This document shows positions 36,805 to 40,846 of a stretch of DNA of 64,000 bases, in pieces. The notes under the pieces are model-generated. The model was not told where the DNA came from, ran no database searches, and saw only the letters and a list, made by a program, of their open reading frames with translations. The DNA comes from Comamonadaceae bacterium (GTDB taxonomy: Bacteria; Pseudomonadota; Gammaproteobacteria; Burkholderiales; Burkholderiaceae_C). A program made the translations under genes and the position numbers. Numbering within the stretch: position 1 is the first letter of the stretch; each line of letters opens with the position of its first letter. The DNA lies in contig CANFCG010000001.1 in NCBI GenBank assembly GCA_947445115.1, positions 1 to 64,000 on the forward strand. The letters are read 5' to 3'.

Positions 36805-37728
36805 ATGAAAAGAAAAAACACTCAGATCTCTCGTCAAGCGCTTTGTGCTGGAGAGGCGCTCATTGATTTGGTGAGTGATGAACATGGAAAACTAACGCCT
36901 TGCTTGGGCGGTGCGGTGTACAACCTAGCCCGCGCCTTGGCATTGCAAGGCGTGGGCACAGGCTATCTCAATCCACTGTCTCGGGATTTGTACGGCACTC
37001 AACTTCGCGCTGGATTAGAGGCGGCAGGTGTCGCTGTATTTGAAGCAAGCCCCGTTTTGGAGTCTACGTCGTTAGCCGTCGTCAACTTAGATGCTGACGG
37101 CAAAGCAATCTATGCGTTCTATCGAGAAGGCGTCGCTGACCGGAAGACCAGTAGCGATCAGCTTAATCATCTGAGTCGGCATGCCGACGTGCAAATCGCC
37201 TGTACAGGCTGCTTGGCATTGTCTCCAGATGATGCCAAGTCTTATCTACCTTGGCTTACAGAGCAAAAACGGCTGGGACGCACCATCTGTATTGACGTTA
37301 ACGTGCGCGCAGCCGTCATGAAAGATGATGCGGCTTATAAAGAAAACATAATGGCTGCTTGCGCCTTGGCTGACATCATTAAAGCCAGCGACGACGATTT
37401 GGCGTATTTGGACATCAGCGCAGAAGCGATGCTGACCCAATCTAGTGCGAAAATTTTTCTACTCACCCTAGGCTCGCAAGGCGCTCAGCTATTGACCCAC
37501 CAAGGGCTGCGCTTGACAGCGCCTGCCCCGCAAGGCTTGCAGCTAGTCGATACGGTGGGCGCTGGGGACTGTTTTTTTGCTGGTTTTTTGGCACATTGGC
37601 TTAACGATACATCCGATCTGCAAGCAGCGCTCGATCACGCCGTTAGCAGCGCCAGCATCAATTGCACGCGCCTTGGCTGCCAGCCGCCAACGTGGGATGA
37701 GGCGCTGGCATTGAGCAAGCCAGTGTAG
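36805..37728 (+). CDS. PfkB-family carbohydrate kinase (fructokinase-like)
   Basis: Ribokinase-superfamily sugar kinase of 307 residues, cytoplasmic. N-terminal GEALIDLVSD and GGAVYNLARALALQGVG form the sugar site; the C-terminal DTVGAGDCFFAGFLAHW (249-265) holds the anion hole and catalytic base Asp255. Closest in look to fructokinases, but ribokinase- or KDG kinase-like substrates cannot be excluded. It is divergent from a ROK regulator with a 78-bp shared control region. No sugar transporter or other catabolic gene is adjacent. Confidence 0.86.
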   Translation: MKRKNTQISRQALCAGEALIDLVSDEHGKLTPCLGGAVYNLARALALQGVGTGYLNPLSRDLYGTQLRAGLEAAGVAVFEASPVLESTSLAVVNLDADGKAIYAFYREGVADRKTSSDQLNHLSRHADVQIACTGCLALSPDDAKSYLPWLTEQKRLGRTICIDVNVRAAVMKDDAAYKENIMAACALADIIKASDDDLAYLDISAEAMLTQSSAKIFLLTLGSQGAQLLTHQGLRLTAPAPQGLQLVDTVGAGDCFFAGFLAHWLNDTSDLQAALDHAVSSASINCTRLGCQPPTWDEALALSKPV

Positions 37729-37748: not shown

Positions 37749-38249
37749 ATGAATTCAACCACTAAGACCCTATGCTGTTTTGTCACAGGGCTTGTACTTG
37801 GATCCAGCGCTCACGCAGCTTTAGGCGAGTCGGCTCAAACCATCACCGCTGATGCCGCAGCACTTCTTTCCCTTGCCCCCGTGCACAGGGTTGTATCTAC
37901 AACATTGGCCTCCAGCGGAGTCCCCCTCTATACGCAGTACGAAATTGCCTTGCCCAACAATGGTTTAGCGGTTGAATGGAGTAACGCAGTCGGGATTGTT
38001 TTTGCTGTGTCATGGCAGTCGCCAGTCATGCCACCACTGACGATCTTGCTTGGTGGCACTCATTCGGCACACTTGCGGGCGCAGGCTAAAGGGCGACGTG
38101 GCAGTACTTCCCACTCCTTACATCAACTCAGCGCCAATGAAGGCGATTGGGTCATGCGCACCCAAGCACGCCCTAGAGCCTATGGTGGATTTGCCTACTT
38201 GCGCTCGCAAGTACCGAGTGGGTTTGATTTGAAATTATTGATGCCATGA
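37749..38249 (+). CDS. Exported DUF2844 family protein
   Basis: A 166-residue secreted protein of unknown function. A signal peptide covers about residues 1-23 (CCFVTGLVLGSSAHA, then ALGE). The conserved DUF2844 features are the YEIALPNNGLAVEWSNAVGI, VFAVSWQSPVMPPLTILLG and GGFAYLRSQVPSGFDL segments. Its stop overlaps the DUF3443 lipoprotein start in ATGA, and these two families commonly occur side by side in Burkholderiales, so the products probably act together in the periplasm (inference). It starts 20 bp after the sugar kinase gene. Confidence 0.82.
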   Translation: MNSTTKTLCCFVTGLVLGSSAHAALGESAQTITADAAALLSLAPVHRVVSTTLASSGVPLYTQYEIALPNNGLAVEWSNAVGIVFAVSWQSPVMPPLTILLGGTHSAHLRAQAKGRRGSTSHSLHQLSANEGDWVMRTQARPRAYGGFAYLRSQVPSGFDLKLLMP

Positions 38250-39601
38250 ATTTTTTGAAAATTTACCGTTATTTCACCATTACGGCGGCGCTTACTTTTC
38301 TTCTCAGTGCGTGTGGCGGCGGGGGGGCAAGCTCAAGCGCATTAGTAAGCCCCGTTTCTGCATCGCTAGTGCAAAGCCAAACTGGCGCAATGCCTGGCGA
38401 TAGTAATGTCGTCGCTATCTACATGGATGCAGGCCCCGTCACGACCAATCACGTGATTAACGCGATGTTTGTGGATATCCAAATTTGCGCCCCGGGGAGC
38501 ACAACCCAATGCGCGGTTATTGATCACGTCCTCGTCGATACAGGCTCTACTGGACTTCGGCTCATGTCCTCAGCGATACCCGCCTCCCTGGTATCGGCCT
38601 TACCCCAAGTGCCTCTTGGCTCAGGCGTGGCAGGCGAGTGTCTGCATTTTGTGCAAGGCTTTACGTGGGGTGGCGTCCGCCAGTTGGATTTGCATTGGGG
38701 CGGTAGTAACTACACAGGTGAAGTCGCGCGCACACTGAATACCCAAATTATTGCGGATACGGATACGCGGGTGGTAAATGCGCCATCGAGTTGTGTGGTC
38801 AGTGGTGGCGGCATAGCCAATGCCATGCAAACAGTTGCACAATTGGGTGCAAAGGGAATCATTGGTATTGGCGTTTTTAAATATGACTGCGGTACAGCTT
38901 GCGTTTCCACCACTGGTAATGGCTACTATGCCTGCGCTAGCTCTTGCATTAGCGCGGCAACGCCACTTGCATCGCAAGTCACACACCCCATTTCACTTCT
39001 AACCACCAATAATAATGGGAGCACCATAGCGTTGCCGTCGCTGAGCAAAAATTACGCCGATCAAGTCGCTGGGCTATTGGTGCTGGGTATCGGGACTCAA
39101 ACCAACAATGCACTCACACAGTTCAGTAGTGTGGTTAGTGCTTTACCTTACAGCGCAGGCTATTCGGCAGGCACGTTTACATCCGTCTTTAATGGTCATA
39201 CGCTGGGTGGCAGCTATATGGACAGTGGCACCTCGTTAAATTACTTCCCCGCAGCCGGCACGCTCCCGTATTTGGTGTGTACCCCAGCTTCCAGCACCAG
39301 CTTTGTCTATGGTTTGCTTTGCCCCACATCGCCCGTCACGCTAACCGCCAATATCTTTAATACCGCTAATCTGGCGGGTGCATCAACTTCAGCCACCGTA
39401 TACACCGTCAATGCTCAAACCCTTGTGAACTCAGCCTCTAGCGCCAATGCTTTTGCAGGTTTGGCTGGCAATCAAACGGCAACCAGCAACATGGTTTTTG
39501 GTGGAAGTTTCTTTTTTGGACGCTCCATTGCCACGCTCATTGAAAACCAGTCCGCATCGGGCATGAGCGTTACGGGCCCTGCGTTTGCCTATACCCCGTA
39601 A
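38246..39601 (+). CDS. DUF3443 lipoprotein with pepsin-like DTG/DSG motifs
   Basis: A 451-residue lipoprotein of a family without known function. Lipobox LLSAC puts the acylated cysteine at residue 23, followed by a flexible Gly/Ser stretch, so export and membrane anchoring are likely. Two aspartic-protease-like motifs are visible: Asp98 in LVDTGSTGLRLMSS and Asp326 in SYMDSGTSLNYFP. Between them GAKGIIGIGVFKYD (202-215) resembles the hydrophobic-hydrophobic-Gly element that completes the psi loop in pepsins, and VFGGSFFFGRSIATLIEN near the end recalls the pepsin C-terminal strand. Several cysteines (81, 89, 132, 183, 215, 219, 230, 234) could form disulfides. A bilobal aspartic peptidase fold is my inference; activity is untested. 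Coupled to DUF2844. Confidence 0.8.
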   Translation: MNFLKIYRYFTITAALTFLLSACGGGGASSSALVSPVSASLVQSQTGAMPGDSNVVAIYMDAGPVTTNHVINAMFVDIQICAPGSTTQCAVIDHVLVDTGSTGLRLMSSAIPASLVSALPQVPLGSGVAGECLHFVQGFTWGGVRQLDLHWGGSNYTGEVARTLNTQIIADTDTRVVNAPSSCVVSGGGIANAMQTVAQLGAKGIIGIGVFKYDCGTACVSTTGNGYYACASSCISAATPLASQVTHPISLLTTNNNGSTIALPSLSKNYADQVAGLLVLGIGTQTNNALTQFSSVVSALPYSAGYSAGTFTSVFNGHTLGGSYMDSGTSLNYFPAAGTLPYLVCTPASSTSFVYGLLCPTSPVTLTANIFNTANLAGASTSATVYTVNAQTLVNSASSANAFAGLAGNQTATSNMVFGGSFFFGRSIATLIENQSASGMSVTGPAFAYTP

Positions 39602-39616
39602 CTCTACGAATAGAGT

Positions 39617-40846
39617 CTAGGCAGCACTGAGCTTCACCACAAAGCAGCCCCCCATGCCTTGCATGGCTTGGCAGGTGGCACTACCGCGATGACGCTGCGC
39701 AATGCTTTTGACGAGTGCAAGCCCAAGCCCCACACCGCCATCACGTTCGCTAGCATTTTTGGCACGATAAAAAGGTTCAAAAATACGCCTGCATTCATTC
39801 TCAGCAACGCCAGGGCCATGATCTCGCACCACAATATTAAAACAATCGCACTGCGCTGTTAACGCCAAAGTCACAGCACCTTTGTCGGGATTGTTATAGC
39901 GATGCGCATTCTCTAGTAAGTTACGCAGTAAACGCCTGACTAAACGCGGATAGCCCACCATTTCAAACGAGCCTTGAGAATTATCATCAACCATGAGCTC
40001 GGCCGATGTTCTGGCGCACTCCTCCGCGGCCAAACCCATCAAATCAAAAGACTCCGTTTGGCCAATGATGGCATCAGGCGCGTCCAATCGACTTGCTAGC
40101 AAAATCTCTTCAATTAAGCTGTCTAGCTCATGAATATTACGACTAATCTCTTGGCTAGTAGACTCGGAAGCCTTATTTGGCGAGGCTTGCATCAACGTCA
40201 AAGCCATACGAATGCGTGCTAACGGCGAGCGCAACTCATGCGAAGCATTGGCCAGTAAAGACTTGTGAGCACTCATTAAGGACTCAACCTGTGCAGCTGC
40301 CAAATTAAATTTTTGCGCCAAAAATGCCACTTCATCGTCGCCTTCAACTGGCACGCGAGACGATAAATGTCCCGCACCCCATTGATCAACCCCATGCTGC
40401 AAGACTTCGAGTCGACGCATTAAACGCCGAATAATAGGGTAGGCGCCCAGCCCAACCGCAATTGCCATCAAAGCGAGCAAGCCCAAAAATCCATAGCCAG
40501 AAAAGTACCAAGGAGGCGCGGGACGTGGTGGCCGCGTTACCCGTGGCGGAATCACAAGGCTAAGTTTTTGTCCATTATCGAGACTTACATCAAAACCGCG
40601 GGTTCTAGGCGGTAGGCCCTCTGCAGCCGAGGGCTCCAGACGCCGACTGGCATGTCCGATGACTTGGCCTGTTTCGCTTCGAACTTCAATTTCGCGTTGC
40701 CCTTCACGCTGACTCATATCGACCGTTTGAATACGGAACTGCTCCTGTAAATGCTCGGTATGGTTGCTCCAAAGCAAACTCACCACAACCGCAAAAGCAG
40801 CAAGTGTGGCCACAACAGCCAACCAAATACGCGCGTAGAGTCTCAT
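39617..40846 (-). CDS. Sensor histidine kinase, CpxA-like
   Basis: Inner-membrane sensor kinase of 409 residues: membrane span about 7-26, periplasmic segment 27-115, second span about 118-138, HAMP about 139-190, HisKA with ANASHELRSPLARIRM (phospho-His203), and HATPase with NLLENAHRYNN, DHGPGVAENE and GVGLGLALVKSIAQRH. The periplasmic part is Pro/Arg-rich toward its end (RVTRPPRPAPP). It lies 11 bp downstream of an OmpR-type regulator and a CpxP/Spy-like gene, so the order is cpxP-cpxR-cpxA on one strand. The name is inferred from this context; RstB or QseC-like kinases have similar architecture. Confidence 0.87.
   Translation of the reverse strand: MRLYARIWLAVVATLAAFAVVVSLLWSNHTEHLQEQFRIQTVDMSQREGQREIEVRSETGQVIGHASRRLEPSAAEGLPPRTRGFDVSLDNGQKLSLVIPPRVTRPPRPAPPWYFSGYGFLGLLALMAIAVGLGAYPIIRRLMRRLEVLQHGVDQWGAGHLSSRVPVEGDDEVAFLAQKFNLAAAQVESLMSAHKSLLANASHELRSPLARIRMALTLMQASPNKASESTSQEISRNIHELDSLIEEILLASRLDAPDAIIGQTESFDLMGLAAEECARTSAELMVDDNSQGSFEMVGYPRLVRRLLRNLLENAHRYNNPDKGAVTLALTAQCDCFNIVVRDHGPGVAENECRRIFEPFYRAKNASERDGGVGLGLALVKSIAQRHRGSATCQAMQGMGGCFVVKLSAA

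Follow-up and report, generated by a model that had tools for sequence, protein, structure and literature searches.

Bacterial pepsin-like peptidases have been described as rare, and the characterised shewasins among them as cytoplasmic. Single-lobe retropepsin-like enzymes, such as those of PF13650 and PF13975, which we take to belong to peptidase clan AA, must dimerise. In the parts of the published accounts drawn on here, shewasin D is an acid-active enzyme that is sensitive to pepstatin and found mainly in the cytoplasm (PMC4814920), and PecA is an aspartic protease of the mycobacterial surface that carries DTG and DSG motifs and needs its Asp for self-cleavage and for surface-protein processing (PMC6819658, which cites the PE_PGRS16 structure 4EHC); with PecA known in mycobacteria, bacterial surface aspartic proteases have a precedent. 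Here we describe a pair of genes, of the families DUF2844 and DUF3443, in a 64,000-nucleotide stretch of DNA from a Comamonadaceae bacterium (the window; assembly GCA_947445115.1, contig CANFCG010000001.1, positions 1 to 64,000), of which the second is predicted to encode an exported lipoprotein with the two-lobed pepsin fold. This gene had been singled out from the sequence letters as a possible pepsin-like peptidase (hereafter the original prediction). In the literature searched, no paper was found for DUF3443 or DUF2844 by name, nor any lipoprotein pepsin-like family with its own partner gene; the terms PF11925, PF11005 and two InterPro numbers gave matches for 'PF11005' only, which by title were Plasmodium gene names. 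The gene and the features of its product are as follows.

38246..39601, + strand: DUF3443 gene, encoding a 451-amino-acid lipoprotein, a predicted pepsin-like two-lobed aspartic peptidase (PF11925 match and structural model)
38246..38314, + strand: lipoprotein signal and lipobox, residues 1-23, LLSAC (Cys23), followed by GGGG
38537..38548, + strand: catalytic motif 1, D98-T-G-S (LVDTGS), Asp in 138/138 aligned homologues
38558..38560, + strand: Arg105, at the pepsin Trp39 position as suggested by the ungapped motif register (Asp+7), 138/138 aligned homologues
38648..38650, + strand: Phe135, in the turn of the predicted flap hairpin, pepsin Tyr75 position, 138/138 aligned homologues
38855..38872, + strand: GIIGIG, residues 204-209, lobe 1 psi-loop element, G207 in 138/138, model strand 182-186
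39221..39232, + strand: catalytic motif 2, D326-S-G-T (YMDSGT), Asp in 139/139 aligned homologues
39494..39523, + strand: VFGGSFFFGR, residues 417-426, probable lobe 2 psi-loop element by presumed register

In a profile scan, the open reading frame (ORF) at 38246-39601 (+) matched the Pfam family DUF3443 (PF11925) over residues 53-449 (E 5.5e-88), and its score of 295.8 bits against a curated cut-off of 25 placed it in this family, which is still labelled as of unknown function in the Pfam copy used (newest models 2025). The NCBIfam scan of the protein gave no meaningful match, and the one reverse-strand frame translated over the stretch held many stops. Exactly two D[TS]G[ST] motifs are present in the protein, at residues 98 and 326 with a spacing of 228, just where the original prediction had located its two D-T/S-G motifs; since only 27 of 20,000 shuffled versions of its sequence showed two such motifs, composition alone is a poor explanation of them. 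Homologues were drawn from a profile-found set of 66 sequences and from a pattern scan of genome_contigs, in which a pattern built from the closer 12-member alignment A2 gave at least 531 confirmed stretches; the 80 loci kept were mostly from betaproteobacteria, seven of them carrying Acidobacteriota-type titles, and a scan of genome_contigs with a single protein as query yielded no confirmed relative. The original prediction had staked itself on the conservation of both aspartates, and across the 141 distinct homologues, with a gap at Asp98 in three and at Asp326 in two, neither varied (138/138 and 139/139); residues two and four of both motifs were Thr or Ser in all aligned homologues, and the motif Gly was kept in all but one homologue for each (G100A and G328A; n=138-139). 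Because the 80 genome_contigs loci were found by the patterns VDTG or WGLPFF, the conservation of Asp98 among them is partly by construction. The profile-found set, for which no motif patterns were used, is free of this, and gave Asp98 in 63/63 and Asp326 in 64/64.

The predicted structure carries the argument further. An AlphaFold2 model was computed for the mature window protein with 56 homologues (alignment A3, holding 56 of the 80 loci and the window protein after 14 near-duplicates and 10 members with N-terminal extensions had been omitted), and reached a predicted local distance difference test (pLDDT) score of 85.7 and a predicted template modelling (pTM) score of 0.88; 34 of its 429 residues fell under pLDDT 50, nearly all of them in the linker (model residues 1-26) and in the loop 279-284. 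Foldseek against the PDB returned 392 matches at E <= 0.001, the best at 7.7e-10 with probability 1.00, and the best 50 of the 392 were BACE1 or BACE2. The VIA comparison was headed by the Irpex lacteus aspartic proteinase 1wkr (Z 25.1, 291 residues, root-mean-square deviation 3.2 A), with rhizopuspepsin at Z 23.0 and human pepsin at Z 22.1; the best 50 listed were all pepsin-type peptidases or zymogens, as single chains, and the aligned range, about model residues 30-429, took in both lobes. PE_PGRS16 (4EHC) was not among the best 50 Foldseek or VIA rows, which says nothing against a relationship. Asp98 and Asp326 stand in separate halves of the model, as in a two-lobed clan AA fold. On the model, the full two-lobed pepsin fold of DUF3443 is near certain, and the original prediction of a pepsin-like bilobal fold is supported.

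The elements that complete the catalytic loops of pepsins were compared as well. The GIIGIG block and the GGSFFFGR strand, which the original prediction had placed between the motifs and near the C-terminus, were found at residues 204-209 and 417-426, where the window protein reads IIG and VFG as hydrophobic-hydrophobic-Gly motifs. Residue 417, ahead of the lobe-2 Gly419, is Asp in 119/138 homologues, so the second hydrophobic-hydrophobic-Gly motif is not strict in the family. In a weakly scoring hhalign comparison with pepsin, the FFFGR block fell on WILGDVFIR, two residues off Gly-on-Gly; the short helix at 420-423 directly after Gly419 in the model favours Gly419 on pepsin Gly302. If that register holds, the pepsin Asp303 position is Leu in 116/138 homologues, and Leu at this register-dependent position is found in Shewanella and Colwellia sequences as well. 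The flap is predicted as a hairpin of model strands 105-112 and 116-129 (full-length residues 127-134 and 138-151) that follows the first catalytic Asp, with Phe135 (model residue 113) in the turn by secondary structure. Arg105 is Asp98+7, as pepsin Trp39 is Asp32+7. Regarding residue 75, the parts of Rawlings and Bateman (PMC2761423) drawn on here report that Tyr75Phe rhizopuspepsin keeps a weakened activity.

The original prediction had named a profile search of DUF3443 against clan AA as a check. At the level of sequence profiles, an affiliation was supported by weak matches to PF13650 and by a bridging giant protein, and direct similarity to PF00026 was not detected. PF13650 (Asp_protease_2) was weakly matched by 5/49 DUF3443 members (best 0.0013) and PF13975 by one. 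The bridge is L008 of genome G137, a giant ORF in which a weak DUF3443 match sits. Its pepsin-like part matched PF13650 above the cut-off (E 1.4e-8) and, below the cut-offs, PF13975 (1.3e-5, two stretches), DUF3443 (1.1e-4), PF00026 (0.019) and PF20729, the PecA family (0.024). Comparing profiles by hhalign, DUF3443 aligned with L008 at P 2.6e-6 and with a tandem relative, L147, at P 3.7e-7; in this register, Asp98 lies on DTGS and Phe135 on a Tyr (SYSSG in L008, SYQDG in L147), like the TYGTG of pepsin. As a weak relative, L008 links DUF3443 to clan AA profiles. In weaker alignments, Asp326 fell exactly on Asp215 of pepsin (A3), and Asp98 on the DTGS Asp of a bacterial PF00026 protein. A PDB search with L008 gave only chance aldehyde dehydrogenase matches, and when further bacterial PF00026 sequences for the profile test were sought round G1024, that genome proved to be the sole one in its order.

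The relatives themselves are of unusual build. The ORF of L008 (also L150; G137:C33) is an open frame of 4118 amino acids, 2815 of them within the stretch examined, and its pepsin-like domain adjoins weakly Big/cadherin-like sequence. L147 (733-2775, G414) and L149 (402-2402, G450) encode lipoprotein-like proteins of 666-680 amino acids with two complete pepsin-like units in tandem; they carry four D[TS]G motifs and hence probably four lobes, and in the second unit the flap residue is a Tyr. The two halves of L147 can be aligned collinearly (E 1.9e-6 by phmmer with one target and filters off), and for both proteins the PF13650 match, at 2e-4 to 3e-4, falls slightly short of the cut-off.

Features of export were judged from the sequence letters, by the lipobox Cys and the residue at +2. 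The acylated start foreseen by the original prediction is present as the lipobox LLSAC with Cys23, which was kept in 133/133 aligned homologues, and position +2 was Gly in 128/133 and Asp in none. By the Lol sorting rule, a lipoprotein without Asp at +2 goes to the outer membrane. The Gly at +2 thus points to outer-membrane sorting, and an outer-membrane or surface location of DUF3443 appears quite likely from these residues. Among the 141 homologues, Cys 81, 89, 132, 230, 234 and 345 were invariant where aligned and Cys 183 (137/139), 219 (125/126), 359 (136/140) and 215 (126/134) nearly so; the ten conserved core cysteines would fit an oxidising compartment. No pro-segment was recognised in DUF3443. 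Four other members (L137, L071, L139 and L113) have an extra region of about 150 residues between the lipobox and DUF3443, in the N-terminal third of the protein, which was weakly PKD-like in 2/4 scanned.

Directly upstream lies a second, small gene, which the original prediction did not contain, as it contained neither the 4-base overlap of the two genes nor the ten core cysteines, Phe135 and Arg105.

37749..38249, + strand: DUF2844 gene, 166 amino acids, signal-peptide-like start (by eye), PF11005 at E 1.3e-21

Its profile score of 77.3 bits against a curated cut-off of 22.4 assigned it to DUF2844, and its ORF overlaps the start of DUF3443 by 4 bases. By domain positions, a DUF2844 gene stands upstream on the same strand in 138/150 DUF3443 frames (77/80 genome_contigs loci with flanks up to 8 kb, and 61/70 frames in loci with flanks of about 1.5 kb); because the 150 frames include the window's own gene and genes present in two loci, they were collapsed to 140 distinct genes, of which 128 had the partner. 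The lipobox Cys codon of DUF3443 follows the DUF2844 stop at a median distance of 77 bases, and 104/111 distances, obtained from the 125 frames in which a lipobox was matched, were <= 200, so the DUF3443 signal peptide starts at or near the DUF2844 stop. Among 44 genomes that we chose from those searched, DUF2844 was found in 30/32 with DUF3443 and 0/12 without it.

The DUF2844 protein itself was less readily placed. Its predicted mature N-terminus has a conserved A-x-L-G (Leu25 132/133, Gly26 131/133). Alignment A4 of the family was built from 54/64 selected sequences and the window protein, and includes L135, which is apparently frame-broken. The structural model was fair (pLDDT 83.9, pTM 0.76), with a helix, four strands, a long helix, three strands and a short helix. 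The best VIA score was that of YdcD (Z 7.5), within the chance range by the tool's own note, and the others were at chance level: YpeB Z 5.3, DUF2874 proteins 4.0-4.4 and a BLIP-like protein 3.7. YpeB (5boi) was weakly matched by Foldseek (probability 0.91, E 0.04), and the PepSY profile weakly matched 1/55 DUF2844 members (E 0.21). Among the families listed, nothing significant with a pepsin-inhibitor-like or pro-segment fold was found. Domains of the PepSY and BLIP types are known to act as propeptides or inhibitors; such a role would fit DUF2844, and the data do not establish it.

Several variants of the pair were seen. L151 (G535:C3:400500-406000) carries a tandem DUF2844-DUF3443-DUF2844-DUF3443, its last gene cut by the stretch end; in the second DUF3443, the lipobox is followed by some 130 linker residues rich in GS and TP repeats. 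Two DUF3443 genes stand head to tail in L063 (G724), L064 (G833) and L048 (G910), of genus g342; those of G724 and G833 lie behind a single DUF2844, and the G910 stretch is too short to tell. L168 (G833:C7:29000-32500) holds a divergent DUF2844 with no DUF3443 within 3.5 kb, a possible independent use of DUF2844.

Built on the directly observed sequence, motifs, conservation and gene pairing, the reading that we prefer is that DUF3443 is probably an exported, Cys23-acylated, membrane-tethered two-lobed aspartic peptidase served by DUF2844. Peptidase activity is likely, and for DUF2844 as a regulator or chaperone of this peptidase we see about an even chance. In the mechanism we propose, DUF2844, made just before DUF3443, would be released to the periplasm and would hold or fold the enzyme in trans. 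This small secreted protein would be dedicated to DUF3443 and would most likely inhibit it or help it to fold, a role suggested because no pro-segment was recognised in the enzyme itself. DUF3443 would be exported and acylated at Cys23, with its Gly-rich linker as the tether to the outer membrane, and the extra N-terminal region, or the long GS/TP linker between anchor and enzyme in some members, could serve as a reaching tether. A peptide would be bound in the cleft under a beta-hairpin flap tipped by Phe135, and water activated between Asp98 and Asp326 would attack the held peptide.

A number of points weigh against this reading. A PDB sequence search and a search with profile A1 (48/53 selected locus sequences and the window protein) found no chain at E <= 10, and in the 49 DUF3443 members no PF00026 match was found at E <= 10, though the HMMER filters drop most matches >0.1. 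The hhalign comparison of DUF3443 with pepsin alone was weak (P 0.013 for A3, 0.04 for A1), as was that with the bacterial PF00026 protein (P 0.03 over 19 columns). By query, the Foldseek template modelling scores (TM-scores) of the DUF3443 model were a modest 0.42-0.48, which is presumably due to loop insertions and a lobe shift. The flap Tyr75 of family A1 is replaced by Phe135 and Trp39 by Arg105, each without exception in the aligned homologues, and in the parts of PMC2761423 drawn on here no Phe75 homologue is reported as characterised or shown active. As for the partner, 12/140 distinct DUF3443 genes had no DUF2844 in the stretch, some of these being copies whose stretch ends before the partner position; G725 and G781 have DUF3443 with no DUF2844 shown; and the DUF2844 model found no significant match in the PDB by Foldseek (best E 0.027).

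The invariant Phe at the flap and the invariant Arg at the Trp39 position would also suit a pepsin-fold protein that is no peptidase, whose cleft would bind a peptide, glycan or surface ligand, like a plant xylanase inhibitor of the same fold. Consistent with this, the parts of PMC2761423 drawn on here note non-peptidase members of family A1 and judge bacterial homologues without the psi-loop motifs likely inactive. The non-peptidases named there, however, are those with non-conserved aspartates, whereas no aligned DUF3443 homologue has lost either Asp or the Thr/Ser at the second and fourth positions of the two motifs; a purely structural reason to keep both aspartates is hard to give, and we regard this alternative as unlikely. 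To a similar degree we doubt that DUF3443 mainly cleaves DUF2844, which would then be the effector rather than a regulator. The near-obligate pairing and gene order, as well as the A-x-L-G conserved where mature DUF2844 is predicted to begin, would agree with such dedicated processing, but a near-invariant N-terminus fits binding equally, inspection by eye showed no conserved linker that could be cleaved, and the conserved residues are spread along the chain. That an unrelated beta-rich lipoprotein carries the motifs by coincidence is highly improbable, since the lack of a significant direct match to PF00026 or the PDB is set against a fold match of Z 22-25 along both lobes, invariant aspartates and a sequence bridge to clan AA.

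The distribution of the membrane-tethered peptidase proposed here was followed by whole-genome profile searches, with the window's own genome in each sample and the samples overlapping. DUF3443 exceeded the cut-off in 7/299 genomes of the phylum, 3/303 of the class, 48/399 of the order, 28/299 of the family and 1/5 of the genus; it is common in the order, patchy within the genus and family, and rare in the class at large. PF00026 was found in 2/303 class and 1/330 order genomes. In the order, the exported DUF3443 is therefore far commoner than canonical pepsins (48/399 vs 1/330), and class-wide the two are about equally rare; a general excess of DUF3443 over PF00026 was not borne out in the matched class sample (3 vs 2 of 303) and holds within the order. 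One order genome, G371, carries both a canonical PF00026 pepsin and DUF3443 (C9:3707-4666; C13:240405-241469). Two canonical PF00026 pepsins in the class, L145 (G1024) and L146 (G968), begin by eye with sequences resembling signal peptides, and in this differ from the cytoplasmic shewasins.

The pair is bordered in the window by two genes, which were also compared in congeners.

36805..37728, + strand: PfkB-family kinase gene, flanking, outside the pair; empty-site border in two congeners
39617..40846, - strand: convergent gene, histidine-kinase-like (by eye), flanking; other empty-site border in two congeners

Four congeners were compared. In G705 and G965, the pfkB and kinase-like genes stand side by side (matches 41 bases apart in one, overlapping in the other) and no remnant of the pair is seen; the flanks of G823 lie on separate contigs, and G903 yielded no close pfkB. 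With joined flanks lacking the pair in two congeners, DUF2844 and DUF3443 appear to come or go together, as a unit. The GC content of the pair is like that of its surroundings, so composition does not point to a recent foreign origin. Promoter and terminator scans at the locus stayed at background level. A larger operon was also looked for: when neighbours were clustered in the 80 loci by crude gene calling, the two largest clusters (67 and 30 loci) lay at the pair's own positions, and the remaining clusters were in <= 23 loci each. A defence or phage reading was dropped, NCBIfam, PADLOC and PHROGs being without meaningful match.

We tentatively extend this picture, as a possibility only, to a DUF3443-DUF2844 module gained and lost as a unit, in which a surface-facing outer-membrane pepsin is kept folded and silent until placed by a separate DUF2844, like the pro-segment of pepsinogen, and which, with the tandem and four-lobed relatives, might form the main unnamed pepsin-like branch in Burkholderiales-type bacteria. 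If active, DUF3443 would be an envelope aspartic peptidase with a dedicated partner in many betaproteobacteria and some Acidobacteriota, and two families of unknown function, DUF3443 and DUF2844, would become one testable system. The invariant flap Phe would allow a direct test of the need for Tyr75 in a natural enzyme, a point left open in the parts of PMC2761423 drawn on here, and two-lobed bacterial sequences are supplied for the question of pepsin origin.

Compared with known systems, DUF3443 shares with the family A1 pepsins (pepsin, rhizopuspepsin, polyporopepsin and BACE; PF00026) a predicted two-lobed single chain with one D[TS]G[ST] motif per lobe, and the window protein also shares their IIG and VFG elements. 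It differs from them in Phe for Tyr75, Arg for Trp39, ten core cysteines and a lipoprotein anchor, and in that no significant sequence match and no pro-segment were recognised and residue 417, ahead of the lobe-2 Gly, is mostly Asp. With shewasins A and D it has in common that they are bacterial and two-lobed with both aspartates, and with Marinomonas and Sinorhizobium homologues a Phe at the flap, according to an uncertain alignment in the parts of PMC2761423 drawn on here; the bacterial pepsins treated there are without a predicted signal peptide, whereas DUF3443 is a lipoprotein. PecA and PE_PGRS16 (PF20729) sit on PE_PGRS proteins and are not lipoproteins, and their sequence link to DUF3443 is weak and indirect, via L008. 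The PF13650 and PF13975 enzymes, weakly matched by DUF3443 members, consist of one dimerising lobe, against two lobes in one DUF3443 chain. For DUF2844, the PepSY/YpeB-like domains show a weak fold likeness, which is below the level of chance matches and has no sequence link. As DUF3443 lacks the flap Tyr and shows no significant sequence similarity to PF00026, we do not file it in family A1; a separate family of pepsin-like proteins within clan AA is the best place for it.

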